In this document: positions 44,155-61,300 of the stretch, piece after piece | Position numbering within the stretch: position 1 is the stretch's first letter | Layout of the letters: each line of letters begins with the position of its first letter | Origin: Actinobacteria bacterium IMCC26207 | GTDB lineage: Bacteria; Actinomycetota; Acidimicrobiia; Acidimicrobiales; Microtrichaceae | DNA: 64,000 bases | NCBI GenBank assembly: GCA_001025035.1 | Contig: LCZK01000008.1 | Coordinates: forward strand, 1 to 64,000 | Direction: 5' to 3' | The notes under the pieces: generated by a model | What the model saw: the letters and a program-made list of their open reading frames with translations, nothing else | The model's database searches: none | What the model was told of the DNA's origin: nothing | Program-made: the position numbers and the translations under genes

Positions 44155-45662
44155 AAGTAGCCATTGTTGGTGCTGGCTTAGGTGGACTTGCAGCAGCTTG
44201 TCACCTTGCAGGTAATGGCCACGATGTGACCGTGGTGGAGCGTGACCCTGCCCCTGGCGGGAGGGCGGGCCGATGGGAATCCAACGGCTACAGCTTCGAC
44301 ACCGGGCCGACAGTATTTACCATGGTGGAGTTTCTCGAGAGAACCTTCAATGCGGCTGGCGCCTCGGTAGAGGATCACGTCACCTTTGATCGCCTCGACC
44401 CTGGATACCGCGCCTGTTACGCAGACGGCTCCGAATTGTTTGTTCGCGCTGGCCGTGAGGCCATGACCGAAGAGATCCGCACAGTCTGTGGGGCACATGA
44501 CGCCGCAGCCTTCGGACCCTTTTGCGATTGGCTGACGGAACTCAACCGTGTTGAGGTTCCTAACTTTATTGATCGCAACTTCAACACCCCTTTCGACCTT
44601 GCCTCATCGCCGAAGGCGGGCATCGAACTGTTGCGCCTTGGCGGGTTTGGCAAGCTCGAAGCCAAAGTCAAAACCTTCTTTGACGACTACCGGCTGCATC
44701 GCCTGTTCTCCTTCCAAGCGCTCTATGCAGGCCTCTCCCCCTTTGACGCACTCGCTTTGTACGGCGTGATCACCTACATGGACACAGTCGCAGGAGTCTG
44801 GGCGCCACGCGGTGGAATCCATGCAGTCGCAACCGGTCTGGCCGAAGCCGCAGAAAAGGCGGGGGCACAGTTCCACTATGGGGATCCAGTGATTCGCATT
44901 GAGCGCCGTCCCGGCAGCGGCGAGGTGAGCGGAGTTCGCACAGCAGGCGGGCAACGATTCGAGGCCGATGTGGTGGTGGCGAATCCCGATGTTCCAGCGG
45001 TGTACCGAGAGCTTCTTTCGGCCACACCCCCTTGGCGTGCACGCACCGGCACCTACTCCCCCTCCTGCTTGTTATGGCTGGTTGGCGTAAAGGGAGACAT
45101 GCCTGAGCGGGCAGTGCACCACAACATTCACTTCAGTAAAGAGTGGACAGTGTCATTCGATGAGTTGCTCAAAAAGGGCACGATGATGACCGACCCATCG
45201 ATCCTTGTATCAGCACCTTCTGTGACTGACCCGAGCTGCGCACCCGCCGGTAGCAACACGCTCTATGTCTTGGAGCCAGTGCCAAATCTCGATGGCAAAG
45301 TTGACTGGTCTACTGAGCGCGTGCCAGCCCGTGATCGCCTAGCTGCACGAGTTGCGGCGCTGGGGTATCCAGAGGTCATTGAGTGCGAGCAACTCATTGA
45401 CCCGCTTGATTGGGATGCACTCGGCATGGAACGCGGGACTCCGTTTGCAATGGCGCATAAGTTCGCAAGGACTGGCCCCTTCCGTGCACCCAATATTGAT
45501 CGCAAGATTCCCGGTCTGGTTCTTGTCGGATCTGGAACTGTCCCCGGCGTTGGCGTACCAATGGTTCTGGTCTCTGGTCGTCTTGCAGCCGAGCGCGCCG
45601 AGGCCATGGCTGGTGCTGGAAGCCGAGGCAAAGCGGGCCGATCCGGGTCTGCAAGCAGGTGA
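44151..45662 (+). CDS. crtI: Phytoene desaturase (CrtI type)
   Basis: FAD enzyme converting phytoene to lycopene in four steps. FAD loop VAIVGAGLGGLAAACHLAGN, followed by GGRAGRWESNGYSFDTGPTVF, the membrane-contact region and the C-terminal signature LVLVGSGTVPGVGVPMVLVSG. Length 503 is typical. GTG start overlaps the crtE stop; its own stop overlaps the crtB GTG start. Confidence 0.95.
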   Translation: MKVAIVGAGLGGLAAACHLAGNGHDVTVVERDPAPGGRAGRWESNGYSFDTGPTVFTMVEFLERTFNAAGASVEDHVTFDRLDPGYRACYADGSELFVRAGREAMTEEIRTVCGAHDAAAFGPFCDWLTELNRVEVPNFIDRNFNTPFDLASSPKAGIELLRLGGFGKLEAKVKTFFDDYRLHRLFSFQALYAGLSPFDALALYGVITYMDTVAGVWAPRGGIHAVATGLAEAAEKAGAQFHYGDPVIRIERRPGSGEVSGVRTAGGQRFEADVVVANPDVPAVYRELLSATPPWRARTGTYSPSCLLWLVGVKGDMPERAVHHNIHFSKEWTVSFDELLKKGTMMTDPSILVSAPSVTDPSCAPAGSNTLYVLEPVPNLDGKVDWSTERVPARDRLAARVAALGYPEVIECEQLIDPLDWDALGMERGTPFAMAHKFARTGPFRAPNIDRKIPGLVLVGSGTVPGVGVPMVLVSGRLAAERAEAMAGAGSRGKAGRSGSASR

Positions 45663-46549
45663 CCACACTCGAGGCGAGCTACGCCGAGTGCAAGCGACTC
45701 AACCGCAAGTCGGGAACCACTTACTACTGGGCAACTCAGGTTCTGCCCGCCGTCAAACGTCATCATGTGCACGCGCTCTATGGGTTCTGCCGCTATGCCG
45801 ATGACATCGTGGACGATATGGGCCCGGCAAGCCCCGAGCAGAGAGCTGACGCTCTGGCCGCCTTCGGGGACAGCTTTTTTGCTGATCTAGATCGAGGTGA
45901 GTCTGATGACTTGGTCCTCAAGGCCGTGGTGCATACCGTCAAGGCCTTCTCCATTGACCCAGAGCTTTTCCACCGCTTCTTGAACTCCATGACCATGGAT
46001 CTGAGCGTGGATTCCTACGCCACTTGGGATGACCTCTGCGATTACATGGACGGCTCTGCCTGCGTGATCGGCGAGATGATGCTGCCCATTTTGGAGCCGG
46101 CTAGCCCAGCGGCGATTCCGCACGCTCGAGACTTGGGCCTGGCATTCCAACTGACGAATTTTCTGCGTGACGTGGGTGAAGATCTTGATCGCGGTCGGGT
46201 GTACATCCCTCAGGAAGACCTAGAGAAATTCGGCGCCGACCCACACCTGCGAAGGGTTACCCCGGAATGGCGAAATCTGATGCAGTTCGAGATTGAGCGC
46301 TCCAGAGAGCTCTACCTCTCTGCAGACCTTGGCGTAGCCGAACTGTACGGTTCCTCTGCTCGCTCAATTCGCGCTGCGCGAATTCTGTACTCAGAAATTC
46401 TGGATCACATCGAGGCGAACGAGTACGACGTGTTCAGTCAACGTGCTCGTGTGCCACTCATGCGCAAAGTAGCGGTAGCTACCGAGATGATTGTTCCTCT
46501 CGGACAGTTCTGGAATGCCCACGCTCCCGCAGCGCTTCGTCGGCACTGA
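45659..46549 (+). CDS. crtB: Phytoene synthase
   Basis: Condenses two geranylgeranyl diphosphates. The first Asp-rich motif is GFCRYADDIVDDMG, the second FLRDVGEDLDRGRVYIP. N-terminal KRLNRKSGTTYYWATQVLP is standard for CrtB. 296 residues. Last gene of the plus-strand operon; converges on crtZ. Confidence 0.95.
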   Translation: MTTLEASYAECKRLNRKSGTTYYWATQVLPAVKRHHVHALYGFCRYADDIVDDMGPASPEQRADALAAFGDSFFADLDRGESDDLVLKAVVHTVKAFSIDPELFHRFLNSMTMDLSVDSYATWDDLCDYMDGSACVIGEMMLPILEPASPAAIPHARDLGLAFQLTNFLRDVGEDLDRGRVYIPQEDLEKFGADPHLRRVTPEWRNLMQFEIERSRELYLSADLGVAELYGSSARSIRAARILYSEILDHIEANEYDVFSQRARVPLMRKVAVATEMIVPLGQFWNAHAPAALRRH

Positions 46550-46645
46550 GTTAGCGCTTCGCTGCCTCAGCGGCGAAACATCTGGCTGCTGAAGCTAACT
46601 GGCCGCCTGGGCTAACTTGCCGTTTGGGCTAACTGGCTGTTTGAG
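46550..46645. repeat. 17-bp degenerate tandem repeat between crtB and crtZ
   Basis: From 46595, three units CTAACTGGCCGCCTGGG, CTAACTTGCCGTTTGGG, CTAACTGGCTGTTTGAG lie head to tail across the crtZ stop codon (46629). No clean terminator hairpin is seen in the 80-bp gap. Confidence 0.7.
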
Positions 46646-47141
46646 CCGCTGCTGTTGGAGCGGCTGATGCAACGCGAATCGGGTCACGAGTCGTGCTCGC
46701 TGCACGCTCTCGAAGTGCAGCTGGAATCACCGGCGCCAACATGCCGTATGGCGCAGCGTTATAGAGGTGATGAATCCGGTGTGCCTCGCGAAGCGGCTCT
46801 AAGAACGCAACACGCTCGGGCAACACAGAAAGACGACGATGGATATAAAAGTCGTGAATCACCAAATAGGACATTCCGTAAGCAGTGATTCCGGCACCGA
46901 TTGCAATCAGAATGCTCAGCTGTGGTTGAAGCGCCCCGATAGCCATGATGGCAATCGTGGACCCCGCAAAGATAACCGGGAAAAAATCGTTCGCTTCCCA
47001 GCCCGTGCTACCGGGGCGGTGATGGCTGCGATGCAAAAAATGTCCAAACCCATGAAAGACCACGCGATGAGTTAGTGCAGTGACTGGCTCCATCACCAAA
47101 AAAGCAGCTACCGCCGCCAAGACCACAACAAGCACATTCAT
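46629..47141 (-). CDS. crtZ: Beta-carotene hydroxylase
   Basis: Membrane di-iron hydroxylase of 170 residues, adding 3-OH groups to beta-ionone rings. The histidine boxes are LTHRVVFHGF, HRSHHRPGS, VIHDFYIHRR and EAHRIHHLYN; four membrane helices lie between them. The Ala/Thr-rich tail after residue 150 is unconserved and partly repeat-encoded. ATG 47141 directly abuts the crtYd stop. Confidence 0.92.
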   Translation of the reverse strand: MNVLVVVLAAVAAFLVMEPVTALTHRVVFHGFGHFLHRSHHRPGSTGWEANDFFPVIFAGSTIAIMAIGALQPQLSILIAIGAGITAYGMSYLVIHDFYIHRRLSVLPERVAFLEPLREAHRIHHLYNAAPYGMLAPVIPAALRERAASTTRDPIRVASAAPTAAAQTAS

Positions 47142-47519
47142 CTATGCCTCACTTTCACTGACAGCCTCGCTGTCGGGTACCACGTTCTTGTTATTTAGTT
47201 CTACCGACTGAGTGGCTCTTCGGCCAAGTTGATCCCAGACCACCATCGTGAGGGTCACGAGCGCAAAGCCAAACCCAAAGTCCTCAAGAGGAGAATGAAA
47301 GAACACTCGGATGCCAGAGAACACATCGCTGTTGTAGTTCACGATGGGCGAAGAGGCCTTGGTCAACCAACCATCAACTAGCACCTGAAAGAACCCAACA
47401 ATTGCCATTGCAATCCAGTAGCTGCCTGTGCGAAAGATTCCCGTTCGAGCAATGAGCAACTCGTAGAGCACCACGAGCACCATGGCAAGAAGCGTGAGAA
47501 ACGTGTACGCACCCATCAT
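47142..47519 (-). CDS. crtYd: Lycopene cyclase subunit CrtYd-like
   Basis: A 125-residue three-helix membrane protein of the lycopene cyclase domain family, the C-terminal partner of the heterodimer. Key element is FHSPLEDFGFGFALVTLTMVVWDQL with the conserved Pro-Leu-Glu-Asp. The ATG overlaps the crtYc stop (ATGA). With CrtZ downstream, beta-cyclisation (CrtYcd) is likelier than the C50 CrtYef/LbtBC function, as no UbiA-type elongase is present. Confidence 0.88.
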   Translation of the reverse strand: MMGAYTFLTLLAMVLVVLYELLIARTGIFRTGSYWIAMAIVGFFQVLVDGWLTKASSPIVNYNSDVFSGIRVFFHSPLEDFGFGFALVTLTMVVWDQLGRRATQSVELNNKNVVPDSEAVSESEA

Positions 47520-47827
47520 CGACCTCTCAATTTGCGAACTGTTTCAAGGGTCAGCAGCCCGCAGATTGGAATCACTAAGAAGAAGGTAAGTTCTTCAATG
47601 GGTAAGGCACCCGGCAGTTCCCAACCTGTCACAAACTCTGGGGTGTAGCTCCAATGATCCCAAGCAATAGCAAACACATCCCACACAGCGAAGACGCAGA
47701 CCGGAACAATCATGGTCAGCATCAGTCGACGAGGTTGCCGATAGACCCTTGCGCCAAGGACGAGTTCCAAGGGCAAAGTGCCCAGAATGCAGAGCCCCAT
47801 CAAAATGAGGTATTGGTACCTGTCCAC
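47516..47827 (-). CDS. crtYc: Lycopene cyclase subunit CrtYc-like
   Basis: N-terminal half of the heterodimeric cyclase: three helices with RYQYLILMGLCILGTLPLELV, FAVWDVFAIAWDHWSYTPEFVTG and LPGALPIEELTFFLVIPICGL (the PxEE motif). GTG 47827 gives 103 residues, the usual size; the longer frame to 48010 runs through idi on the other strand and is rejected. Part of the crtYc-crtYd-crtZ run. Confidence 0.85.
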   Translation of the reverse strand: MDRYQYLILMGLCILGTLPLELVLGARVYRQPRRLMLTMIVPVCVFAVWDVFAIAWDHWSYTPEFVTGWELPGALPIEELTFFLVIPICGLLTLETVRKLRGR

Positions 47828-47857
47828 CCCCCAATTGTAGATGCCACGCAGGTCGTA

Positions 47858-48370
47858 GTGTTGGTCGACGATCAGGGAATTCCCACCGGAACGATGGATA
47901 AGTTGGCCGCACATTCTGGGGCTGGAGCGCTCCACAGCGCCTTTTCGGTTTTCCTGTACGACACGGCGGGCCGGGTACTGCTTCAACGGCGAGCTGCGCA
48001 GAAGCACCATTTCAGAAACAAGTGGTCAAACACCTGTTGTAGCCACCCGCTACCTGGGGAAACGGTGACTGCTGCAGCATCACGTCGGCTCCTGCAAGAG
48101 GTCGGAATCACTGCCTCTGCCGAGGTTGTTGGCAGCTTTACGTATCGCGCGCCGGACCTTGACAGCGGCCTGATTGAGGTGGAGTTCGATTACGTTCTGA
48201 TTGGCCAATATGAAGGTGACGTCTCGCCCAATCCGGATGAAGTCTCGGAGGTGCAGTGGGTGAACTTTCAAGGGCTGAGAGAACAGATTGCGCTAGACCC
48301 CGAGGCGTACACCCCATGGCTCACGCTCGCACTCGACGTGATCGAACAGCAAACTCCCACGCCGATCTGA
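47858..48370 (+). CDS. idi: Isopentenyl-diphosphate delta-isomerase type I
   Basis: Nudix-fold isomerase balancing IPP and DMAPP for crtE. Visible are VLVDDQGIPTGTMDKLAAH, FSVFLYDTAGRVLLQRRA, NTCCSHPLPGE (catalytic Cys), ASRRLLQEVGI, and EVEFDYVLIGQY with the catalytic-site Glu, then NPDEVSEVQWV. The start is unclear: GTG 47858 or TTG 47813 fit, the latter adding residues that read VPVHPPIVDATQ. Divergent from and nearly overlapping crtYc. Confidence 0.93.
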   Translation: MLVDDQGIPTGTMDKLAAHSGAGALHSAFSVFLYDTAGRVLLQRRAAQKHHFRNKWSNTCCSHPLPGETVTAAASRRLLQEVGITASAEVVGSFTYRAPDLDSGLIEVEFDYVLIGQYEGDVSPNPDEVSEVQWVNFQGLREQIALDPEAYTPWLTLALDVIEQQTPTPI

Positions 48371-49436: not shown

Positions 49437-50333
49437 ATGGCGACATCTCGACGACAGTTCATCACGGGAACAGCAGGCATTGGGCTTGGCGCCGTTGCAG
49501 TTGCCGCTGTGGCAGCCTGCACCAAAGAAGACACCGCTGCACCGGCAACTTCGACCTCTGCCCCGCCAACTACCAAGCCACCCAAGCTGATCACCGCAGC
49601 CGAGACCCAGGCCGAGTTCGAGGGCTACTTGCAACAAAAGGGCCTGACCGAAGCTCCTACTCAGCCACTGATCTCTGGCATCGAATTCAACGGCGGCCTT
49701 CGCTACGACGACGACCCATCAACACTGACCAACGCCAACTATGTGAAGCAGATCGCTGCTCGCCCCGAGGATGTTGAGAAGAAGGACAATCCGGGAACGC
49801 TTCCTGTCTTCACAGTCATGGGCGTATCAACCACCACCCCAGAACAAGCTGTAGTTGCCACAGACCTAGTCATGACATACCTCACTGGAACCGTCGGCCT
49901 AGACATGGATCGACTTCGCGTAACTACCACTGATCGCTCTGCGCAGTTTTTCCCGCAACTCGACAAGTATGGAATCAGCACCGAGCAAATCACTCTTCGC
50001 CCTTGGGACGAGGCAGTCAAGGATGGCTCAGGCTCCGGATTCTTCGCCCCAGCGGGACACCCCGGAAATCCAGCAGTTCCAAGTTTCTCGATTGAATACA
50101 TGCTCTCTTCTGGCGTCAGGCTTGAGCTCGCCGAGATCACCTACGGGGACGGAACCGTTCCCACAGCGGGTGGCATCGGCGTGGAGCGAGTCTCGATGGC
50201 ACGCAACGATCTAGTTACCAGTTGGGGTGATTCACTCCCAGCGTTCAAGACAGCCGTTGAGGACTCGGTCACAGCAACTGGCGCAGCACGCCCAGCCGGG
50301 TACTACACGATCCTCGAACAAAAGCAGCCCTGA
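49437..50333 (+). CDS. Tat-exported lipoprotein with alanyl-tRNA-synthetase-like domain
   Basis: The start TSRRQFITGTAGIG is a twin-arginine signal, and AVAAVAAC followed by TKED is a lipobox (Cys about residue 25), so this should be a folded, lipid-anchored protein outside the membrane. After a Thr/Pro linker, residues about 60-290 recall the class II catalytic core of alanyl-tRNA synthetase: PVFTVMGVSTTTPEQAVVAT, YLTGTVGLDMDRLRVTT, LDKYGISTEQITLRPWDEA, FFAPAGHPGNPAVPSFSIEY, and GGIGVERVSMAR in place of the DTGMGLERL motif. The likeness is judged by eye and may be structural only. It could be a former synthetase domain reused as a binding protein. Confidence 0.55.
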   Translation: MATSRRQFITGTAGIGLGAVAVAAVAACTKEDTAAPATSTSAPPTTKPPKLITAAETQAEFEGYLQQKGLTEAPTQPLISGIEFNGGLRYDDDPSTLTNANYVKQIAARPEDVEKKDNPGTLPVFTVMGVSTTTPEQAVVATDLVMTYLTGTVGLDMDRLRVTTTDRSAQFFPQLDKYGISTEQITLRPWDEAVKDGSGSGFFAPAGHPGNPAVPSFSIEYMLSSGVRLELAEITYGDGTVPTAGGIGVERVSMARNDLVTSWGDSLPAFKTAVEDSVTATGAARPAGYYTILEQKQP

Positions 50334-50355
50334 CCGCTCCACCCTTGGGGCTTAC

Positions 50356-50406
50356 GCGTCTGGAGCGGTTTTTCGACAGTATGTGTCGAAAAACCGCTCC
50401 AGACGC
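50356..50406. terminator. Long hairpin element, copy 1
   Basis: Perfect 23-bp arms around loop GTATG. The 35-bp core AGCGGTTTTTCGACA-GTATG-TGTCGAAAAACCGCT is identical in four copies. It lies in the 73-bp gap between two convergent stop codons, so it can act as a bidirectional terminator. The A/T runs lie inside the stem rather than after it, unlike a textbook terminator. Confidence 0.8.
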
Positions 50407-51966
50407 TCAGGTCACGCAGTTCAGAACGACGCTACTACCCGCGTTGCCTTCAGAATCGGTGGCCGTCGCTATGAGTGAGAACGTTTGCGATGGGTCATTG
50501 GGGCTGACGGTCGGGAACGTTGCTTTCCATGAACTGCTACTCCCAAACATTGAGGTTGAGCCTGAGCGACCAAACGTGCTCGTCCAGCTGAGGGTGACAG
50601 TCACCACGGTGGCAGCGCTTGTCACTCTGGCCACATAGACCTGATTACTACAACCAGTCAGAGCCCCAGAAAGCGTGACTTGGGGTGGCAGCACTGGCGG
50701 TGAAGTTGTCGGAGCTGCAGTAGTCGGAACTGCAGTTGCAGGAGGTGCAGTAGTCGGAACTGCGGTAACTGGAGGTGCAGTAACTGCTGAGGTCACCGTT
50801 GATGTGGTCGACTCGAGAATACTCACACCTCCCGCATCCAACATCGATGTTGTTGTCTGCACAGAACCCAACGAGGTATCCACCCTCGGCCAGAACAACA
50901 CAAACCCAGATCCGTCCGCATCTGGATCCCTCAAGTCGCTCGAAGCGCCCTCTGAACGAACAGCCGTGTCTGGTGGATCCAACAACACCGAACCACCTAG
51001 AACCAGCAACAACACAACAAGCACCGCGAGCCCCACAACGAGCGCCCGGCGTCGAGCAGCACCATCCGCTGGCGGGAAACCATCCCCCCGCCATGGCCGC
51101 CCACCCGCATGTGAACCACCCGCACCCGCTGCGGCACTGGCAAGGACACGCTTGCGAACCGAAATCGGAACCCCCAGCAACGGCGACGCACCCGCAACAC
51201 CAGACAGTACAAACGCAGGCACCTTCTTTCGCGACTGTTCACACACCTCACAAGAATCAACATGGCGATTCACCCGCTTACGCCACAGAACCGAAAACTC
51301 GCCATCCCAACTAGCCAAGACAGCAGCGAGTTCCTCGCAATCAGCTTGACCCCTACTGGCAATCAGCAAGGCCCCCAATGACTGGCCCACACGCTCCTTC
51401 ATCCGGAACGTCGCTAGGTGAGCCTTGCTTGGCGACACACCTAGTGCGCTTGCTAGGTCAGCGCCATCAATTCCCTGCAACACCAGTTCCAGCACCAGGC
51501 GATCACTGCTCTCTAACCCGGCCGAGGCCTGAGCAATTAGCTGTGCCAGCTCGGCCTGTTCCGCCGAGGCCTCAACTGATACCTCAACGATCGTCGACGA
51601 GGCATCAGCTGTGCGTAACGCTTCAAAGTCAGACATCTCAGATACCTCCTCACTCGCAACGGTGCGAGAGCCACGCCGGGTTTTCAAATACACCTGCCGG
51701 CGAGCAATAGCGAACAACCAAGGCTTCAAACGAGACGGATCACGAAGCTGACCCATGCGCTCAACCGCAACCAGAAACACATCACCGCACACATCCTCAG
51801 CCGCAGAACGATCAGCCAACATATGCGCACACATCGTGTACACCCGACTTGCGTAACGGTCATAGATCTCTGCCAGAGCCTGCTGATCACCCGCACAAAA
51901 ACGGCGCACTAATTCGGCGTCCTCAGCCGCAGCCTTCGTTGTACTCGCTTCTTGCTCAGCAGTCAT
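50407..51966 (-). CDS. Membrane-tethered ECF sigma factor with zinc-finger and Ig-like ectodomain (paralogue 1)
   Basis: One 519-residue chain. Residues 20-100 are sigma region 2 (LAEIYDRYASRVYTMCAHML, SRLKPWLFAIARRQVYLKTR). Residues 138-200 are region 4 with helix-turn-helix GADLASALGVSPSKAHLATF. Residues 210-245 hold C-x24-H-x3-C-x2-C (HVDSCEVC), as in zinc-finger anti-sigma proteins. Residues 308-329 are one membrane helix. A Thr/Pro/Ala stalk (390-428) leads to an Ig-like beta domain (430-519) with two cysteines. Sigma and anti-sigma/sensor parts are thus joined, so release probably needs proteolysis. AGGGAG lies 8 bp before ATG. Paralogue at 54873. Confidence 0.85.
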   Translation of the reverse strand: MTAEQEASTTKAAAEDAELVRRFCAGDQQALAEIYDRYASRVYTMCAHMLADRSAAEDVCGDVFLVAVERMGQLRDPSRLKPWLFAIARRQVYLKTRRGSRTVASEEVSEMSDFEALRTADASSTIVEVSVEASAEQAELAQLIAQASAGLESSDRLVLELVLQGIDGADLASALGVSPSKAHLATFRMKERVGQSLGALLIASRGQADCEELAAVLASWDGEFSVLWRKRVNRHVDSCEVCEQSRKKVPAFVLSGVAGASPLLGVPISVRKRVLASAAAGAGGSHAGGRPWRGDGFPPADGAARRRALVVGLAVLVVLLLVLGGSVLLDPPDTAVRSEGASSDLRDPDADGSGFVLFWPRVDTSLGSVQTTTSMLDAGGVSILESTTSTVTSAVTAPPVTAVPTTAPPATAVPTTAAPTTSPPVLPPQVTLSGALTGCSNQVYVARVTSAATVVTVTLSWTSTFGRSGSTSMFGSSSSWKATFPTVSPNDPSQTFSLIATATDSEGNAGSSVVLNCVT

Positions 51967-52016
51967 CTCACAAACTCCCTGCGCCCAACGCTAGACCAAC
52001 GGCGCTTTTCCCGAAC

Positions 52017-52067
52017 GCGCCTGCAGCGGTTTTTCGACAGTATGTGTCGAAAAACCGCTCAGGACGC
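52017..52067. terminator. Long hairpin element, copy 2
   Basis: Core 52025-52059 identical to copy 1; outer arm positions differ. It lies between the end of surface protein A and the start of sigma paralogue 1, both on the minus strand, so it separates two transcription units. Confidence 0.8.
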
Positions 52068-52077
52068 AAGACTCGGT

Positions 52078-52800
52078 TCAGGCAGCCCGACGGCTACGAA
52101 CCAGCCTGGCTACAACAAGCGCCGCAGCGCCAGCAAGCAACACACCGATACCTAAGAACAACAGCGTGGAGCTACTGCCTGTGAAGGCAAGGACACCAGC
52201 CGGCGTTGACTTCGAATCGGTCGCAGGAGGCGAATTTTGAGCCGTCTTATGCACTACCTCTTCGGAAGGAACATTGCTGCCAGTTGTAGATTCTGGAACG
52301 GTCGTCGAGGTCGTCGAGTTCGGCACCGTGGTTGTGGTGGTCTCCTCGGGGCAGGGCTGATAGAGCGGTAGCGCTGGGTCATTGCCGCAACCTGGTGAGC
52401 CTGTTGTGCTGGCATCCCTAGGCGGGTAGACCGGGTTCGGCGTATCGCCAGCAACGCGGACAAGCGGTGCGATGGGATCTGGGGCCTCTTCAGCTAGATG
52501 AAGGCAGCCATCACAGCCTTCGGCGTCACCCGCAGCAGGGTCATCTCCATCGTCATCCACGATGGCAACGGCAGGGGGGACCGTGGTTGTTGTGACCGTG
52601 GGCGTGGGCAAGTGTGGAAACGCTGGAAGTACGTAAACCGGGTCGAGAGTAAAGACGACTCCTGGCGGCACAGTTGGTGCAGGTTCTGCCGAGGCTGAAG
52701 CTGCGAATGGTCCAGCACCAAGGACCACAACTGCAGCAGTCGCTGCTAGGGCCGTCAGAGTGGCACAGCTTTGGTGGAATCGATTGCGAGAGATTTTCAT
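52078..52800 (-). CDS. LAFTG-anchored surface protein A
   Basis: Secreted protein with an N-terminal signal peptide (TALAATAAVVVLGAGPFAASASA), a Pro/Thr/Asp-rich body with TTTTTVP stalk blocks, a short cysteine module (GSPGCGNDPALPLYQPCPEE) and the wall-sorting end VLAFTGSSS, membrane helix, RSRRAA. LAxTG is the form used by class E sortases of Actinobacteria; no sortase gene is in the window. I set the start at the second ATG (MKIS, 52800), because it aligns with the start used by paralogue C and gives 8-bp spacing to AAGGAG; ATG 52806 gives only 2 bp. Confidence 0.8.
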   Translation of the reverse strand: MKISRNRFHQSCATLTALAATAAVVVLGAGPFAASASAEPAPTVPPGVVFTLDPVYVLPAFPHLPTPTVTTTTVPPAVAIVDDDGDDPAAGDAEGCDGCLHLAEEAPDPIAPLVRVAGDTPNPVYPPRDASTTGSPGCGNDPALPLYQPCPEETTTTTVPNSTTSTTVPESTTGSNVPSEEVVHKTAQNSPPATDSKSTPAGVLAFTGSSSTLLFLGIGVLLAGAAALVVARLVRSRRAA

Positions 52801-52900
52801 GTTCATAGCTCCTTGTGTCTGAGGAGGGGTTGTTCCCTCGTTCAGATGTCCAGAGCCAGGAGCGCTCAGAATCTTTCAGTTTTTTAGAAAAGATTTTGCA
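52801..52900 (-). promoter_or_regulatory. Conserved leader, copy A
   Basis: About 95 bp nearly identical to the leader of surface protein B and recognisable in two more genes. Shared blocks in gene direction: CTGAAAGATTCTGAGCGCTC, CTCTGGACATCTGA, GAGGGAACAACCCCTC (small hairpin), AAGGAGCT. It must contain promoter and/or 5' UTR signals. Confidence 0.75.
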
Positions 52901-52918
52901 GAAAGTTTCAGTCTTCAC

Positions 52919-52946
52919 TTGACAGAGTGCTTTACATACCTACATT
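52919..52946 (+). promoter_or_regulatory. Candidate vegetative promoter for surface protein D
   Basis: TTGACA at 52919-52924, 16-bp spacer, TACATT at 52941-52946, in an AT-rich island upstream of the plus-strand gene. This differs from the leaders of the other surface genes, which lack such boxes. Confidence 0.4.
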
Positions 52947-53034
52947 ATGTATATAACCTGATGCAGCAGTTCACTAGTCCCGGTTGGCTTGTTCTGCTGC
53001 TAACACCAAACCCAACAACACATATGGAGTGATC

Positions 53035-53799
53035 ATGAAACACACCGTTCGAGTTCTGCTGCTTCTGGCAGTAACAACACTTGGGTTGTCGGCCCTCAGC
53101 GGATCAGCCTCCGCTACGACCTCGACGCCAAGGGCCATTGTGCCAAGTACTACCTGCTCAGGCAGTTTGGTGAGCATCGTGCTCAACGGACCAGGGGGCA
53201 GCAGCACCGCACCAACAGGATCGACAGTCGAAGTCCGGGGAAGGATCATCATGGCACCCGGTGCTGATCTTGGTCTGGGTGTAGATGAGTCAATCAGCAA
53301 CGTCATCGATTCAATCACCGCATCCCTAAATGGCGGCGCCGGGGTTGATGCCGAGGGCGAGGGCGGGTCGATCAGGGCCAGCCTGTCACCAATACAAACG
53401 GGAGAAAACACAATCACGGTGAAAGTCGACATCGACACAGGAGACGACGAAGAGGAACTTACCTGCAAGTTCAAGGTGACTGGGGTGAGTGAGACTCCCA
53501 CGACAACGCTTGTTCCCGTTGATGATGCCGCCACTGCCCCCACTGCAGACGTTTCCACTACAACCGTTCCGACCGCTACAACAGTTCCGGCTGCTGGCGC
53601 AGTTCCGACCGCTGCGGCCTCGGTGCAAGGTGCCTCTGCAACTTCCTCTGCCGCAACTCCTGCTGCGAGTCCGCAGAGCGAACTCGCATTCACCGGAAAG
53701 AGTTCCGTACCTCTCGGGCTACTCGGCTTAGCACTCGCACTACTCGGCGCTGGACTCCTGATGATCGAGCGTAAGCAACGAGTGAAGCAAGCGGCCTAG
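53035..53799 (+). CDS. LAFTG-anchored surface protein D
   Basis: A 254-residue protein on the opposite strand from its relatives. It has signal peptide VRVLLLLAVTTLGLSALSGSASA, then a beta-rich domain with one cysteine pair (STTCSGSLVSIVLNG to ELTCKFKVTG) rather than the Cys-module of A and B. A Thr/Ala/Pro stalk follows, and the end is SELAFTGKSS, a helix and MIERKQRVKQ. ATG 53035 (MKHTVRV) follows ATGGAGTGATC. The globular domain could bind a ligand. It shares only the anchor plan with A-C. Confidence 0.8.
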   Translation: MKHTVRVLLLLAVTTLGLSALSGSASATTSTPRAIVPSTTCSGSLVSIVLNGPGGSSTAPTGSTVEVRGRIIMAPGADLGLGVDESISNVIDSITASLNGGAGVDAEGEGGSIRASLSPIQTGENTITVKVDIDTGDDEEELTCKFKVTGVSETPTTTLVPVDDAATAPTADVSTTTVPTATTVPAAGAVPTAAASVQGASATSSAATPAASPQSELAFTGKSSVPLGLLGLALALLGAGLLMIERKQRVKQAA

Positions 53800-53813
53800 A
53801 TAGCTAGCGAGGC

Positions 53814-53864
53814 GCGTCCGGAGCGGTTTTTCGACAGTATGTGTCGAAAAACCGCTCCAAACGC
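53814..53864. terminator. Long hairpin element, copy 3
   Basis: Core 53822-53856 identical to the other copies. It fills the gap between the convergent ends of surface proteins D and B, fitting a bidirectional terminator. Confidence 0.8.
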
Positions 53865-53871
53865 AGGCGGG

Positions 53872-54696
53872 TCAGGCAACCCGACGGCTACGAACCAGCC
53901 TGGCTACAACAAGCACTGCAGCGCCCGCTAGCAGCACACCAACACCCAAGAACAACAAGGTGGAACTGCTACCCGTGAACGCAAGCACACCAGTCTTTTC
54001 TACAGTCTTTTCGACACTCTTGTCTTCAACGCTTACAGCTGGCACCGTGCTAGTGGTCGTTGATCCTGGAACAGTGGTTGTAGTTGTCGAGTCAGGCACC
54101 GTGGTTGTGGTGGTCTCCTCGGGGCAGGGCTGATAGACCGCTAGTGCTGGGTCGTTGCCGCACCCCGGTGAGCCTTGTGTGCCTGTTGGTCCTGGCACGG
54201 TCGTAGTGGTGGTCTCCTCGGGGCACGGTATCTCTTGTTGAAGATCGACATTGTCGCAAGGCCCTGGTTGCCATTCGGGGCGTTCCGTGGGCCCGCTACA
54301 GAACTTCTCACCGCAAGGAACCCCACCCTCATCAGGAACCCCACCCTCATCAGGAACCCCGCCGTAGGGGGACGGTTCTGCTTCCGAACCAGCGTCACCT
54401 CCGTCCGAGTCGACATCTCGGGGGTCGGGGCCGATAGTGCGTGGAGTCGCGCCTGGTGTGCCTGATCGACCGGTACCCGCTGCTGCGATGGTGGTTGTCG
54501 TGACAGTCGCTCGAGGAATAATCGGAGCAACGAAGTTCTCAGGAAGGTAGTAGTCATCTCGGGGCGAGCCAGGGTTAGGCGCCGCCGAGGCGGAAGATAC
54601 AAACGGGCCGACGCAGAGAACTGCCACTGCTGCGACCGAGGCACAAGCAGTAACCGTCCGGAGAACTTTCCGTGAGGTTCCAACAGAGATTTTCAT
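53872..54696 (-). CDS. LAFTG-anchored surface protein B
   Basis: Paralogue of A with the same plan: signal peptide (VTACASVAAVAVLCVGPFVSSASA), variable Asp/Gly/Pro body, cysteine modules, TTTTTVP stalks and an anchor almost identical to that of A (VLAFTGSSSTLLFLGVGVLL, then RSRRVA). The phrase PCPEETTTTTVP occurs twice. A three-unit GGVPDE repeat is encoded by an 18-bp tandem repeat near 54310-54362. Ends are conserved and the middle differs, which suggests module exchange or diversifying selection. Start MKIS at 54696 is chosen by the leader alignment. Confidence 0.8.
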   Translation of the reverse strand: MKISVGTSRKVLRTVTACASVAAVAVLCVGPFVSSASAAPNPGSPRDDYYLPENFVAPIIPRATVTTTTIAAAGTGRSGTPGATPRTIGPDPRDVDSDGGDAGSEAEPSPYGGVPDEGGVPDEGGVPCGEKFCSGPTERPEWQPGPCDNVDLQQEIPCPEETTTTTVPGPTGTQGSPGCGNDPALAVYQPCPEETTTTTVPDSTTTTTVPGSTTTSTVPAVSVEDKSVEKTVEKTGVLAFTGSSSTLLFLGVGVLLAGAAVLVVARLVRSRRVA

Positions 54697-54797
54697 GTTC
54701 ATAGCTCCTTGCTCTGAAGAGGGGTTGTTCCCTCGCTCAGATGTCCAGAGATAGGAGCGCTCAGAATCTTTCAGTTTTTAGAAAAAGATTTTCAGCG
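54697..54797 (-). promoter_or_regulatory. Conserved leader, copy B
   Basis: Nearly the same as leader A over about 95 bp, including CTGAAAGATTCTGAGCGCTC, CTCTGGACATCTGA, GAGGGAACAACCCCTC and AAGGAGCT. Confidence 0.75.
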
Positions 54798-54872
54798 GAC
54801 TTTGCAGGGCGGGCAGCCTTCACAGCAGCCTCTCCTACCCCGAGCAGTTCAGTGCCGTTCATCGAGTGCAGT

Positions 54873-56438
54873 TCAGCGCGTGCAGTTGAGCACTGCGCTG
54901 CTACCGGTGTTACCGGCGAGGTCTGTGGCTACAGCCACAAATCCGAAGCTGGTTGCAGTGGGCTGGGTCGAAGGATTGAATGATGCAACCCAGGTACTCC
55001 CAGCTCCTGACATGGGTACTGACCCCGAGGTTGCAACGTCACTAGTCCAATTGAGACTCACCGATGCAACCCCGACTGCGGAACTCACCGTTGCTGTATA
55101 TGGCGTGTCGCAACCGCTAGTGAACCCACTGAGTGAAACCTGGGGTGGCAGCGCTGGCGGTGCAGTGGTCGGAGCTGCTGTAGGCGGCACTGCGGTAGGC
55201 GGCACTGCTGTTGCAGGCGGTGCTGTTGCAGGCGGTGCGGTAATCGGAGGTGCAGTGACTGCTGAGGCAACCGTTGATGTGGTCGACTCGGGAATACTCA
55301 CACCTCCCGCATCCAACATCGATGTTGTTGTCTGCACAGAACCCAACGAGGTATCGACACGAGGCCAGAACAACACAAACCCAGACTCGTCCGCATCTGG
55401 ATCCCTCAATTCGCTCGAAGCACCCTCTGAACGAACAGCCGTGTCACCTGAATCCAACAACACCGAACCACCAAGAACCAACAACAACACAACAAGCACC
55501 GCGAGCCCCACAACGAGCGCCCGGCGTCGAGCAGCACCATCCGCTGGCGGGAAACCATCCCCACGCCATGGCCGCCCACCCACTGTGTTCCCAGCACTTG
55601 CAGTAGCACCCACTCCAGCACTTGCAAGAACACGTTTGCGAACCGAAATCGGAACCCCCAGCAACGGCGACGCACCCGCAACACCAGACAACACAAACGC
55701 AGGCACCTTCTTGCGCGAACGCTCACACACCTCACAAGAATCAACATGGCGATTCACCCGCTTACGCCACAACACAGAAAACTCACCATCCCAACTAGCC
55801 AACACAGCAGCGAGTTCCGGGCAATCCGCTTGACCCCGACTAGCAATGAGCAACGCCCCCAACGACTGGCCCACACGCTCCTTCATCCGGTGTGAGGCCT
55901 GGTGTGCGTTATTCGCCGAAACTCCCAGAGTGCTTGCCAAGTCAGCGCCATCAATTCCCTGCAACACCAGTTCCAGCACCAGGCGGTCACTGCTCTCCAA
56001 CCCAGCGGCAGCTTGAGCAATCAACTGCGCCAACTCAGCCTGCTCCGCCGAGGCCTCAACCATCGTCGAAGAGGAATCAGCTGTGCGTAACGCTTCAGAA
56101 TCAGACATCTCAGATACCTCCTCTACAAGAACTGATCGAGACTCACGGCGGGTTTTCAAATACACCTGCCGGCGAGCAATAGCGAACAACCAAGGCTTCA
56201 AACGAGACGGATCACGAAGCTGTCCAAGGCGCTCAACCGCAACAAGAAACACATCACCGCACACATCCTCAGCCGCTGAACGATCAGCCAACATATGCGC
56301 ACACATCGTGTACACCCGACTTGCGTAACGGTCATAGATCTCTGCCAGAGCCTGCTGATCACCCGCACAAAAACGGCGCACTAACTCGGCGTCCTCAGCC
56401 GAACCCACCGTTGTGCTTGTTACTTGCTCAGCAGCCAT
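54873..56438 (-). CDS. Membrane-tethered ECF sigma factor with zinc-finger and Ig-like ectodomain (paralogue 2)
   Basis: A 521-residue paralogue of the protein at 50407. The sigma regions, HVDSCEVC finger and membrane helix (RRRALVVGLAVLVVLLLVLG) are almost identical. The recognition helix differs slightly (GVSANNAHQASH against GVSPSKAHLATF), which could alter promoter choice. The stalk (APPATAVPPTAVPPTAAP) and the Ig-like domain have diverged most (GFTSGCDTPYTATVSSAVG), so signal recognition may differ. The leader next to the ATG is shared with paralogue 1. Surface protein B follows about 180 bp downstream on the same strand. Confidence 0.85.
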   Translation of the reverse strand: MAAEQVTSTTVGSAEDAELVRRFCAGDQQALAEIYDRYASRVYTMCAHMLADRSAAEDVCGDVFLVAVERLGQLRDPSRLKPWLFAIARRQVYLKTRRESRSVLVEEVSEMSDSEALRTADSSSTMVEASAEQAELAQLIAQAAAGLESSDRLVLELVLQGIDGADLASTLGVSANNAHQASHRMKERVGQSLGALLIASRGQADCPELAAVLASWDGEFSVLWRKRVNRHVDSCEVCERSRKKVPAFVLSGVAGASPLLGVPISVRKRVLASAGVGATASAGNTVGGRPWRGDGFPPADGAARRRALVVGLAVLVVLLLVLGGSVLLDSGDTAVRSEGASSELRDPDADESGFVLFWPRVDTSLGSVQTTTSMLDAGGVSIPESTTSTVASAVTAPPITAPPATAPPATAVPPTAVPPTAAPTTAPPALPPQVSLSGFTSGCDTPYTATVSSAVGVASVSLNWTSDVATSGSVPMSGAGSTWVASFNPSTQPTATSFGFVAVATDLAGNTGSSAVLNCTR

Positions 56439-56524
56439 CTCACAAACTCCCTATAACCAACGCTAGACCAGCTTTCCAAAGACCCCGAGCGAGTTCGGAC
56501 GAGAACTTCGTGTCACGTTGCGAG

Positions 56525-56662
56525 CTACTTCATAGCTCGAAATCCCAAGATGACGGTCATGGTCGCAACTAGGCCGGCTGTTCGTGAACTGATCCAGCGA
56601 TACAGCTCCACGGCGATGCTGTCACTCATTGAATAGCTTGGGGGTGTATGGGAAAGATTCAT
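56525..56662 (-). CDS. 45-residue ORF under the shared leader
   Basis: Starts MNLSHTPP at the position where paralogue C starts MNLSLHS, behind the same AAGGAG leader, but then departs completely. A hydrophobic C-terminal stretch (TAGLVATMTVILGF) could span the membrane. Either a decayed surface-protein gene whose leader survives, or a small membrane peptide that would be coexpressed with the surface proteins. Confidence 0.4.
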   Translation of the reverse strand: MNLSHTPPSYSMSDSIAVELYRWISSRTAGLVATMTVILGFRAMK

Positions 56663-56755
56663 GTTCTTAGCTCCTTAGTAATGACGAGGGCTTGTGCCTT
56701 CGTTCAAGTGTCCAGAGCACCGAACCCACAGAACCTGACAACTTTTCGAACAAAT
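56663..56755 (-). promoter_or_regulatory. Conserved leader, copy of the small ORF
   Basis: Nearly identical to leader C (CTCTGGACACTTGAACGAAG, GCACAAGCCCTCGTCATTAC, AAGGAGCT) and related to leaders A/B. Confidence 0.75.
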
Positions 56756-56925
56756 CTCCTGGACTTATTCGGGGCCGATCAGCCCCCGGACGCGGCTGTG
56801 GCCCAGGCTCGACATCTGGTGTCGAGCCCGGGCCACTGGCTTGTAGGCGCCGGGTTGAAGCCGCCGTGTTGAAGGCTCCGGGTTGCAGGCGCCAGCCTTC
56901 GGTTCCCGCTCAAGGAGAAGCGCTG
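56756..56925. other. Gap with GC-rich stem-loop
   Basis: 170 bp between the small ORF's leader and the end of surface protein C. It holds the stem-loop at 56798-56836 and GGGTTGAAG/GGGTTGCAG-type short repeats; no gene. Confidence 0.5.
56798..56836. terminator. GC-rich stem-loop after surface protein C
   Basis: Arms of 17 bp (GTGGCCCAGGCTCGACA and its complement, one mismatch) around loop TCTGG. It shares the inner TCGACA-N5-TGTCGA geometry with the four long hairpins, but the rest differs. Position after surface protein C suggests termination. Confidence 0.65.
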
Positions 56926-57612
56926 TTAGGCCGTCCGAGGTTTCCGAACCAGCTTGGCTGCTACAAGTGCAACAGCACCGAGCAGCAACACTGCGAGACC
57001 TACGACCAACAGCGTGGAGTTGCTGCCAGTGAAGGCCAACACACCGGATTTCTCAGCAGTGTCATCCTTCACCTGCGGCGAGACCGTTGTAGTGGTCTGA
57101 GGCACCGAGGTGGTGGTAGTGGTGGTTGGGCATGGCGGGTAGTCGGCTCCGACAACTGGCCCACACGGAACCGTAGTAGGAACCGTTTCGGGGACGGTCG
57201 TGGTAGGGCCAGCAAGCGGGTTGGGGTCAGTTTGACCCTTAAGCGCCGCTGGAGTCGGGATTGAACTGGGGTCGGCGTGTGTGGGGTCTGGAACCGCTGC
57301 AGGTGTCGGGGCCGAGCTGGGGTCAGCAGGTGCAGGGTTTGGAACCGCTGCAGGTGTGGGAATTGAGGACGGATCAGCAACCTGTGGCAGTGGGATGCGA
57401 GCAAGGGTCCGGCTCGAGTATGTGGGGGCCTGGTCCATGTTGATCACCGGATCGGCCTCAGGTGCCTGATTCATGTTGATCACCGGATCAGGGTCAGTGA
57501 ATGGATCTGCTGACGCAACTGCTGCAAGCGGTCCAAAGCTCAACGCTCCGAGGCAAAGAACTGCTGCTGTTGCAACGAGGCCTCGATTGATGGAATGAAG
57601 TGAAAGATTCAT
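56926..57612 (-). CDS. LAFTG-anchored surface protein C
   Basis: A 228-residue relative of A and B. After signal peptide VATAAVLCLGALSFGPLAAVASA come two DPVINMNQAP-like units, then three 17-residue repeats of the type ADPSSIPTPAAVPNPAP, TTTVP stalks with PCGP and PPCPTTT, and the anchor VLAFTGSNS, helix, RKPRTA. The repeats would form an extended wall-spanning rod. Start is ATG 57612 behind AAGGAGCTACGAAC; the longer frame to 57657 runs into the leader. Confidence 0.8.
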   Translation of the reverse strand: MNLSLHSINRGLVATAAVLCLGALSFGPLAAVASADPFTDPDPVINMNQAPEADPVINMDQAPTYSSRTLARIPLPQVADPSSIPTPAAVPNPAPADPSSAPTPAAVPDPTHADPSSIPTPAALKGQTDPNPLAGPTTTVPETVPTTVPCGPVVGADYPPCPTTTTTTSVPQTTTTVSPQVKDDTAEKSGVLAFTGSNSTLLVVGLAVLLLGAVALVAAKLVRKPRTA

Positions 57613-57710
57613 GTTCGTAGCTCCTTGGTAATGACGAGGGCTTGTGCCTTCGTTCAAGTGTCCAGAGCACCGAACTCAGAAAACCTGACAACTTTTCGAA
57701 CAAGATTTCA
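57613..57710 (-). promoter_or_regulatory. Conserved leader, copy C
   Basis: Blocks CTCTGGACACTTGAACGAAG, GCACAAGCCCTCGTCATTAC and AAGGAGCT in gene direction. TGAAC-N15-CGTC inside it resembles an ECF promoter in spacing, but lies so close to the start codon that it could equally be an untranslated-region element. Confidence 0.7.
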
Positions 57711-57766
57711 TCTCTTCAGATTCCTGGTGGCAGCGGACAGCTATGAGCGCTGCGCTGTTCCCGAAC

Positions 57767-57817
57767 GCGTCTGGAGCGGTTTTTCGACAGTATGTGTCGA
57801 AAAACCGCTGCAGACGC
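57767..57817. terminator. Long hairpin element, copy 4
   Basis: Core 57775-57809 identical to the other copies. It lies downstream of the stop codon of the minus-strand gene remnant at 57843-58007 and upstream of surface gene C. Confidence 0.8.
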
Positions 57818-57842
57818 GACTCAACCTTCCCCTCATGATCGA

Positions 57843-58007
57843 TCAACGCCGGGGATAGGTATTGATTGCGGGGAACTGCCCTTCCGTAGTCAGTACAAGG
57901 TCCCGACCGTTCTGCTGAAACGCAGCGGCCTCGCCCTGAGACTCAGGTTGAATCTGAACCGAACAGGGCGGTGCAGTAAATGCGCCCGAGATGCTGTTGA
58001 CCTCGCC
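57843..58007 (-). pseudogene. 3' remnant of a beta-propeller-type lipoprotein gene
   Basis: Reads in frame GEVNSISGAFTAPPCSVQI and on to TEGQFPAINTYPRR, then stop; the last 37 codons are DNA-identical to the end of the gene at 62422-63450. An in-frame stop sits just upstream at 58008 and further similarity is lost. It is therefore a broken duplicate of the tail of that gene, ending about 320 bp before the permease-channel gene. Confidence 0.8.
57862..57971. repeat. 110-bp direct repeat, left copy
   Basis: Identical over 110 bp to 62441-62550 in the same orientation, with weaker similarity for some 20 bp on each side. The two copies bracket 4.5 kb holding the permease-channel gene. Confidence 0.95.
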
Positions 58008-58296: not shown

Positions 58297-58329
58297 ATGC
58301 AGAAACGTTCGATTAGCGGTGCGCAATGA
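58297..58329 (+). CDS. Possible 10-codon leader peptide
   Basis: ATG at 58297 lies behind GGGGAGGGGATGAGGC and reads MQKRSISGAQ, then stop. Its TGA overlaps the ATG of the 1301-residue gene, which lacks its own ribosome site. This suggests translational coupling through a short leader. Confidence 0.35.
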   Translation: MQKRSISGAQ

Positions 58330-61300
58330 CTCCTGTTCAGGAAAACTTGGATGAGGGCGAGCTGACCACCAGATCACGCCAACCGATGGCCTACCTGTGG
58401 CCGGCACTTGCGCTGCTGGTACCAACCGCCTGCTACCTGAACTCCAACGGGAATGGTTTTCTCTATTTCCTAACAGGGGCTCTCCTGATGGTTCTCGCCA
58501 TCGCTGGACAGGGCCGAATGAATTGGGAACGATCTCTGGAGAACAGGACTCCGTTCGGGCGAGAAGCCTGGCTCCCCTTAAGCTACCTAGTGCTAGGGGC
58601 TCTGCTTGGCGTCTTCACGTCAAGAATGATCGCAGATGCTTTCTTCGGAAAGATCGGCATCATTTTATTCATTCTGGCGTTCTCCCTAGCGTCTGAGGGA
58701 ATCAGCCGGTCCGGCCTATTTACTTACCTCGCGTACCGAATCTCAGAGAACGCTAACGGATCTACACCTCGCCTCATTCTTTACCTTTTCCTCTTAGCCT
58801 CGTTCCTCACCGCTGTGACATCGAACGACATTGTGGTATTAGCGCTCACACCCATCGTTATGTCTGTTTGTGCACAAGCAAAAATAAAGAATCCAATCCT
58901 TATTCTTCTCTCCACATTTGTAGCAGCAAACACATTCTCGATGCTTCTGCTGATTGGTTCACCCACAAATATCATCATTTCAGAAGCTATAGGGCTCAAT
59001 GCTTTCACCTATTCCTTACTCATGATTGCTCCGGCACTACTTGCATTCCTTCTCACTTTCATCGTCATTTCAAAGGTCCTTGACCAGACCGAGAAGCGAG
59101 CGAATCTGACGCCAGTTGAAAGCGAAGACGTTTCCCTCAGAGAGAAATTCGGACTGATCCTACAAAGACGGGCAGTCCCAAGCAGTTGGACCATTCAGAA
59201 AACCTACGACATTCCTCGCTTCTCAACGTCTGAATCGATTACGCGGGAGATGAAGGAATGGGTCTGGCTCTTTGCATTGTCGGTCCTCGCTCTGTCAATT
59301 GTCTCCTTCAGAGAGGCGAGTTTAATCTGGTGCGCGACACCAATAGCGGTCGCCGCACTTGTCCTGAGTTCACGGCACCGGCGCAGGGAGGATGGCGACG
59401 AGACTCAACCCCTCACCGTGACACAGGAAATCCGAGCTGCTGGTGACATGCTTCGGGAAGTTCCCTGGGGGCTTCTATTTTTCGGAATTACCTTCTTCGT
59501 CGTTGCATCAGCCTTCGCCTCAACGGAATACTTTCAGACTGAAATCATTCATGCGGTGGGGAGTCTCATCTCCCACGGAGGGCCGTTCTCCATCGCGGCG
59601 GCCATAGTAGGTACGGCGACCGTTGTGAGCCTCTTCAATGACCTGCCAGCAGCAGCGTTATGTGGAGAGACTCTCCAGCAGCTCGATTTTGTGAACCCAT
59701 TCAACAGAGCGATGGCCACGGCGGGGATCTTGGTGGGTCTCAATATCGGGACCTACCTGTTCCCAACCGGAGCTCTTGCAGGACTCCTCTGGTTTCGGGT
59801 CATGCGGAAAGAGAGAGACAAGCTTGGGTCTGAAACTGACTCGGAATTTCTTCTTAATATACCGGCTAGATCTGACCTGATTCGATTTGGGTTTCTGGTC
59901 TTCATACCGGTCACCATCATCCTGAGTCTCTGTCTATTTGGAATAGTCGGAGCATTCTCATTCCTGCTCAGCAGTTGGACGGAACACTCACTGTTACTAA
60001 CTTCGCCTCTTAGTGCATGTATTTCACTGATTGGGCTTCTGATGTGCATCCTCACGGTTCGAGGATTCAGTACGGAACTCAAGAAGCGTGATATTTTCCT
60101 AAAACACTTTACACAGCTACTAACATTTCTAGACCGATCATATGAATGGTCAATGAAACACAGGGTCGCTTATATTCTTGCAATCTCGGGTGCCTTATTG
60201 GCGACTTCAGCCGTAATTTTATACTGGGTAGAGCGAGCACACAGCATTCTCTACACGCCCAATGAACAGACCTACTCATCCCCAAAACAGTTCGTTACTT
60301 GGCTAAGCACGATTTCTACGAGTGGATTTGATGACACATTTTTTCCTAACTCACTAGCCGGAGCCATGTTCGTAGGTCTTCTTCCGGTTGTAGGCGTGGC
60401 GCTTATCATCCAGTTGGTTAGAACTCCGGGCGGTGTCTATAGGGAAAAGTTGAGATCCAGAATTGCTAAGGGTGATGCTCTTTCCCATCGGACATTTATT
60501 ATTGGAAACTACCTCAGGGACAGGCAACTTATTGGCCTAATACATGATAGTTCAGACCGATTTATCGTCCTGCTCGATAGGTCGTCCGGCCACATCAAGA
60601 TGCCGGACAAGGAAGACGACACGGCAGATCGCCTTCACATCGTTGAAGGTAGGAACCTCCAAGCCGAGGAGATCGTGGCAAATTTCTCCCTTCTTGCGAC
60701 AAGTGAGATCTTGATCCTCGCTGATCCATCCGAGGATGCCGATCTGGAGAACCTTCTACTGCTCAAGGCGCTCAGCAATTCGATTCAGGCACAGCACCCG
60801 CAAATTCAGCGAATTCCGAATGTTCTCATCGAATGGTCTCGCCCTGAGATGGAAGAGAACCTTTCGGAATATCTAGATCCGCTAGTCATGGAGCGTCTGG
60901 GGAGCATTAGCGCTGCTGGGTCAGTTGGCGAGTGGGCTGCCGCTGAGATGGTCTCTCAGAGTGTCCTGACGGAGCGGCTCTGCGGAATCGGACCCCTGAC
61001 GGGAGATCCGGTGCCCGAACATTCAGCCTGGATTGACAGCAGAAGTTTCGCTGAGCGGGGATTCCGTTCGATTCCCCTTTCTGGGAAGCTAGCTGTGGGT
61101 TCTGGATCCCTGCTGAGTTCCGAACCAAAGTCCGCCCGGGAAAAGAAGGTGAAGTGGATTGCTGCGGCCTCTTCGGCAGCAGAAGTCAACCCATTCCTAG
61201 TGGTGGGACTCGGCCTTGAAATCGGGGGCACCGAAGTGGGACTTGGTTGCTCTGACCCTGGCTTTCTCAAGCGCTCAGCCTCGGCAAATTCACTTCTGGT

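Follow-up and report, generated by a model that had tools for sequence, protein, structure and literature searches.

Do membrane-tethered sigma factors transcribe the genes for surface proteins beside which they are encoded? The question is raised by a locus in a 64,000-nucleotide stretch of contig LCZK01000008.1 from Actinobacteria bacterium IMCC26207 (here called the window, in whose positions the features of the locus are given). Between 50.3 and 57.8 kb we found two genes, sigma1 and sigma2, in which an extracytoplasmic function (ECF) sigma factor is joined to a zinc-finger-like segment, a transmembrane (TM) helix and an immunoglobulin (Ig)-like domain, together with four genes for LAFTG proteins, a 45-residue open reading frame (ORF), four leaders and four palindromes (Table 1). 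We estimate a probability of about 0.68 that the locus encodes two paralogous, self-regulated channels, in each of which an outside event would release a tethered sigma factor to transcribe its own operon, including a surface protein.

The bacterium's habitat is probably fresh water. The minus-strand gene order is LAFTG57, small ORF, sigma2, LAFTG54, then LAFTG52 and sigma1; LAFTG53 is encoded on the opposite strand (plus). Most of the genomes compared are metagenome-assembled; G000 denotes the window's own genome (3.3 Mb) and G007 a second species of the same genus. Because G007 again contains LAFTG57-small ORF-sigma2-LAFTG54 and LAFTG-sigma1, on separate contigs, the layout is not due to chance. 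An earlier, sequence-only reading had listed four LAFTG proteins, a small ORF, four leaders and four hairpins of identical core, all of which are present.

Two sigma factors of a known tethered type

That reading had also described two near-identical sigma-finger-helix-Ig chains, and profiles, motif, TM helix and a modelled Ig sandwich bear this out. The chains share 83-84% identity overall and about 91% over the sigma-to-membrane part. Both match Sigma70_r2 (Pfam) and the NCBIfam sigma70-ECF superfamily above cut-off, over residues 1-200; with the superfamily profile TIGR02937 they score 55.4 and 61.3 bits (cut-off 42.9), and only the sigma2 and sigma4 domains are present. The pair is unique in its genome, where the remaining sigma matches reach at most 36.7 bits. 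Beyond the sigma part, each chain has the HxxxCxxC finger and a single TM helix, followed by a Thr/Pro stalk and, at the C-terminus, an Ig-like sandwich. An AlphaFold model of the sigma2 chain contains sigma2 and sigma4 domains, finger helices, a stalk without order and, at residues 431-521, a beta sandwich modelled with confidence (mostly pLDDT >90). Foldseek related the sigma part to SigW/RsiW, AlgU/MucA and SigK, and the ectodomain to bacterial Ig domains.

Across the full alignment of homologues the histidine and first cysteine of HxxxCxxC are invariant and the second cysteine is at least 90% conserved; Pfam zf-HC2 was detected below threshold, in one relative only. A C-terminal ZAS-like finger followed by a TM helix, a trait of ECF48/52/53-type fused factors, is present in both chains. 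Our Pfam scan found no carbohydrate-binding module, a trait of ECF52, and the Ig-like sandwich stands in its place. The domain plan, likened by architecture, is thus the known ECF48/52/53-like type with fused anti-sigma, and the earlier statement that no system of this composition had been described was too strong.

The aligned homologues span Microthrixaceae, Ilumatobacter-like bacteria and Nocardioidaceae, and more occur in Streptomyces and others. Five loci in Streptomyces and relatives (L113, L116, L121, L124 and L127) have the tethered sigma plan with a possible glycosidase-like core, CAP or beta-helix ectodomain.

Leaders resembling ECF promoters

The four leaders lie upstream of LAFTG52, LAFTG54, LAFTG57 and the small ORF. 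The genome has exactly four copies of their 28-nucleotide core (up to three mismatches allowed), all at this locus. When regions upstream of anchored genes were aligned across genera, the order AAAGTGTCAG-N16/17-CTCYTG, stem-loop, ribosome site and start codon emerged; the stem-loop arms vary across genera but stay complementary. As read from these alignments, the leader is a predicted ECF-type promoter followed by a stem-loop in the 5' untranslated region (5'UTR). RNAalifold returned no consensus structure for the MAFFT alignment of these 5'UTRs because the stem arms were misaligned, and stem support was instead counted per sequence against shuffles: the stems sum to 94 pairs, versus a mean of 65 and a maximum of 76 in 500 shuffles. 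A riboswitch was ruled out, as no Rfam family was found in the window or the locus.

The promoter-like element of other genera reads AAGTGTCAG-N16/17-CTCYWG. Within the family, 18 of 33 genomes carry the sigma gene. The strict pattern AAGTGTMAG-N16/17-CTCYWG gave 15 matches in 11 genomes, all sigma-bearing, compared with one match for the backward control; it is thus found in 11/18 sigma-bearing genomes versus 0/15 without sigma (P=1.7e-4, the genomes not being independent), or 6/9 versus 0/7 by genus. A looser matrix scan identified promoter variants at most of the remaining family sigma loci, and a wider expression searched upstream of sigma homologues matched 27 of 77 on the forward strand and none on the reverse. 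The exact AAGTGTCAG promoter was rejected as an order-wide rule: in genomes from outside the family the strict pattern matched no more often than background (5 of 283 genomes), and only variants of it are present.

Near the sigma loci 43-49 nucleotides separate the predicted promoter from the start of the first ORF, which encodes an LAXTG protein or, L048 excepted, a single-TM protein of 41-245 residues. The sigma gene follows the first ORF after 72-259 nucleotides in most family loci. Since the predicted promoter precedes an LAXTG or single-TM gene and then sigma, the operon looks self-regulated. Off-locus matches (loci L203-L205; G026 C24 and C183, G027 C15) precede secreted lipoprotein genes.

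The leaders might instead be read by the housekeeping sigma factor or another regulator, leaving the tethered sigma factor as an operon bystander. Since the leader is missing from LAFTG53 and from further LAFTG genes in the genome, display of LAFTG proteins can evidently do without it. The leaders, however, contain no sigma70-like box pair and have ECF-type spacing, and the strict pattern is missing from every sigma-less family genome, with a -35 box that differs where the sigma helix differs; we therefore think this explanation unlikely. The proposal that the leaders are targets of the sigma factors is supported by the predicted promoter's restriction to sigma-bearing family genomes. It does not extend to LAFTG53, where a sigma70-like box was found instead and which is probably not in the sigma regulon.

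Predicted anchored proteins in the sigma operons

The LAFTG proteins combine signal peptide, LAXTG motif, TM segment and basic tail, and are predicted substrates of a class E type sortase; one class E sortase scores over cut-off in the genome (C9:37585). The suggested pairing of sigma factor and cargo was upheld by the search of related genomes, in which the cargo-sigma operon is conserved at most family sigma loci. Outside the family LAXTG genes are mostly absent beside the sigma homologues, and the sigma-LAXTG pairing is lineage-specific.

A separate linkage to sortases is seen in Nocardioidaceae. In Aeromicrobium and Nocardioides the fused sigma gene is immediately followed by a class F sortase-like gene (L111 7715-8314, L099 7854-8519, L104 2526-3119), assigned by a profile match just under the curated cut-off in L111 and by catalytic-motif matches in L099 and L104. 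Same-type promoters lie near the sortase-like gene in L111 and L099, and Pro-rich secreted proteins with a C-terminal TM segment at these loci bear the same kind of predicted promoter. Sortase-type surface display therefore appears linked to the sigma factor in two distant clades.

The position of the anchored protein also allows a different role, compatible with the self-regulated channels: it could be a regulator or ligand of the sigma chain, acting on the Ig ectodomain or TM helix to hold or trigger it and co-expressed for stoichiometry. In most family loci its gene lies between the self-promoter and sigma; in certain genera the protein is reduced to a 41-45-residue single-TM peptide (L059, L063 and the window's small ORF), which can hardly be a structural surface protein; and its sequence varies while the C-terminal membrane anchor and, mostly, the basic tail are kept. 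Conversely, LAFTG54 and an orphan LAFTG gene in G009 carry the leader yet are not upstream of a sigma gene, and lipoproteins elsewhere have the same promoter. We regard this role as possible, with odds short of even. A further idea is that the tethered sigma factor monitors sortase work through contact of its TM or Ig part with the anchored product or with the membrane stub left after LAXTG cleavage, which the 41-45-residue proteins at the same operon position resemble, and so couples display to transcription; we judge it very unlikely.

Divergence of the two sigma factors

The sequence-only reading had suggested duplication with divergent ectodomains, and sigma1 and sigma2 indeed differ most in the -35 recognition helix and the Ig domain. 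Of 260 core positions 18 differ, and seven of these fall within the 21-residue helix-turn-helix end (P=1.4e-4). Helix and Ig domain group with their G007 orthologues, whereas at residues 21-100 and 301-400 the paralogues are more alike than sigma1 is to its orthologue. This fits gene conversion sparing helix and ectodomain, by which the other parts look to have been homogenised.

The predicted promoters fall into two types with a common -10 box, their -35 boxes being TTGTCAG (type B) and CTGAAAG (type A). Among homologues, a glutamine in the helix accompanies a -35 TC in a ratio of 13:2, compared with 0:14 for other residues (Fisher 1.8e-6, uncorrected for relatedness). This is suggestive of covariation between helix residue and -35 box, a point that the earlier reading had raised. 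From operon position and this trend we infer that sigma1 would recognise type A and sigma2 type B.

Palindromes at gene ends

The four 51-nucleotide palindromes share an identical 33-nucleotide core, and one further copy with one mismatch occurs elsewhere in the genome. They sit at the 3' ends of genes of any kind and were discarded as an LAFTG signature. Intrinsic terminators were rejected as well: no T run follows the stem, and a terminator scan did not flag them. In G009, a genome of the same genus, the orphan LAFTG gene (L216 1557-2358) has a leader with -35 AAGTGAAAG and a 3' palindrome, and lies between thiolase-like and lipoprotein genes; the matching place in G000 (C4:173815, L064 about 9805-9860) has a palindrome only.

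Could the locus be a recombining surface-antigen array, in which palindromes and repeated ends drive conversion or cassette shuffling of LAFTG genes and the sigma genes are passengers? The near-identity of the palindromes, the conversion-like tracts in sigma1 and sigma2, and the LAFTG gene of G009 at a place where G000 has the palindrome alone would fit. The palindromes are, however, also found at 3' ends of unrelated genes and number only five in the genome, gene order is kept with G007, and nothing resembling a recombinase gene was noticed among the ORFs of the locus, which makes such an array improbable.

A model of two self-regulated channels

In the model that we prefer, each channel is a single chain in which an ECF sigma factor is followed by its own zinc-finger-like anti-sigma segment, then by one membrane helix and, outside the cell, by an Ig-like sensor. 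The sigma part would be inactive while tethered, presumably inhibited by the finger. An event outside the cell, involving the state of the wall or surface or else a partner protein, would free it, most likely by regulated proteolysis, and the freed factor would transcribe its own operon from the -35/-10 promoter. The first gene encodes a wall-anchored LAXTG or small single-TM protein and the sigma gene comes next; the 5' stem-loop may protect the mRNA. Sigma2 would thus serve LAFTG57, the small ORF and sigma2, and sigma1 would serve LAFTG52-sigma1 and LAFTG54.

Several observations weigh against this model. Pfam zf-HC2 did not score in the window's sigma proteins despite HxxxCxxC, and the interdomain arrangement in the AlphaFold model is not confident (pTM 0.42). 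On a tree built without the helix columns, the helix/-35 association comes down to two independent changes (p 0.5, not significant), and for this reason the covariation is only suggestive; L067 and L072 keep the glutamine without TC. Most sigma homologues outside the family have no anchored gene upstream. Four of five other genomes of the genus lack sigma, these being incomplete (62-84%); among these four is G009, with its orphan LAFTG gene and leader.

Table 1. Features of the locus, in window positions
Feature	Position	Strand
sigma1, 519 residues: ECF sigma2-sigma4, HxxxCxxC finger, TM, stalk, Ig-like ectodomain	50407..51966	-
sigma1 -35 recognition helix region, residues 174-188, ALGVSPSKAHLATFR; derived type	51403..51447	-
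sigma1 HxxxCxxC finger (fused anti-sigma/ZAS-like), residues 235-242	51241..51264	-
sigma1 TM helix (approximate)	50977..51066	-
sigma1 Ig-like ectodomain, type 1	50410..50691	-
sigma2, 521 residues: architecture as sigma1	54873..56438	-
sigma2 -35 recognition helix region, residues 170-184, TLGVSANNAHQASHR; family-typical form	55887..55931	-
sigma2 HxxxCxxC finger, residues 231-238	55725..55748	-
sigma2 TM helix, residues 300-327 (AlphaFold)	55458..55541	-
sigma2 Ig-like ectodomain, type 2, beta sandwich (modelled)	54876..55148	-
LAFTG57, Thr/Pro-rich, predicted sortase-anchored	56926..57612	-
Small ORF, 45 residues, single TM, between LAFTG57 and sigma2; own predicted type B promoter; kept in G007	56525..56662	-
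LAFTG54, predicted sortase-anchored, downstream of sigma2	53872..54696	-
LAFTG52, predicted sortase-anchored, upstream of sigma1	52078..52800	-
LAFTG53, without ECF-type leader; neighbour	53035..53799	+
Predicted type B promoter of LAFTG57, AAGTTGTCAG-N17-CTCTGG	57662..57694	-
Predicted type B promoter of small ORF/sigma2	56712..56744	-
Predicted type A promoter of LAFTG54, AACTGAAAG-N17-CTCTGG	54745..54776	-
Predicted type A promoter of LAFTG52/sigma1	52850..52881	-
5'UTR stem-loop, LAFTG57 leader (one of four)	57634..57653	-
5'UTR stem-loop, LAFTG52 leader	52824..52839	-
51-nucleotide palindrome between converging 3' ends of lipoprotein gene and sigma1	50356..50406	
Palindrome at 3' end of LAFTG52, before sigma1	52017..52067	
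Palindrome between converging 3' ends of LAFTG53 and LAFTG54	53814..53864	
Palindrome following the decayed 3' end of a gene (longer copy in G007)	57767..57818	

The Tat/lipoprotein gene at 49437-50333, earlier counted as part of the locus, showed no link to the sigma system and falls outside its regulon. At the other end, 57843-57960 is what decay has left of the 3' part of a gene that G007 has in longer form ahead of LAFTG57. Visual inspection of the ORF list suggests a carotenoid-type cluster at 44151-48010, with ORFs like phytoene desaturase, phytoene synthase and lycopene cyclase, and at 58326-62231 a 1301-residue ORF that resembles an SLC13-type permease joined to a segment of TrkA/Castor type.

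Comparison with known systems

Fused sigma/anti-sigma receptors are, to our knowledge, widespread in Actinobacteria, with promoters, targets and signals almost unknown. Here a predicted promoter and a target class, anchored surface proteins (and in Nocardioidaceae the sortase too), could be read from sequence alone. One genome holds two paralogous channels that have diverged mainly in the helix that reads DNA and in the sensor, so that small reporters could directly test how inputs are paired with outputs and how a duplicated channel of signalling splits. In Streptomyces, BldN-RsbN is likewise an ECF sigma factor paired with a membrane anti-sigma and governs surface proteins of the LAXTG type, the chaplins, but there the anti-sigma is a separate protein and the targets are dispersed.

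The closest likeness is to the actinobacterial ECF52 (SCO4117), ECF48 and ECF53, in which an ECF sigma factor is fused to a zinc finger, TM helix and regulatory extension; ECF52 also has a Pro-rich stalk with an extracellular domain, proteolytic release has been proposed for ECF52-type fused factors, and self-regulation has been suggested for SCO4117 (PMC8999054, PMC5826349). Unlike ECF52, with its carbohydrate-binding module, the chains here have an Ig-like ectodomain, and the predicted promoter differs from the putative SCO4117 motif CSGYN-17bp-SRHA. The operon with sortase-type anchored proteins and the paralogues with split helix and ectodomain set the locus apart from ECF48/52/53. ECF41 resembles it in a -35 TGTCA, a 16-nucleotide spacer and a target gene that adjoins sigma, often in one operon, but its fused regulatory domain lacks the finger-TM-ectodomain plan, its target is a COE protein and its -10 is CGTC (PMC3426412). 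IutY of Pseudomonas putida (ECF243) is also a sigma factor fused to an anti-sigma, whose release by regulated intramembrane proteolysis has been shown (PMC8999054), although in Gram-negative siderophore signalling. SigI-RsgI of Clostridium thermocellum offers several paralogous channels with different extracellular sensors and RseP cleavage in the TM helix (PMC12203970, PMC4711584); in contrast, its anti-sigma is a protein distinct from the sigma factor, SigI does not belong to the ECF factors and the targets are cellulosome genes.

In the open-access literature we found nothing relevant on ECF factors tied to class F sortase or LAFTG. The tethered sigma factor is of a known type, but its pairing with surface proteins seems to be previously undescribed. 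The module is real and conserved, and apparently self-regulated; it joins a known sigma architecture to a new kind of target linkage, in an instructive duplicated pair.

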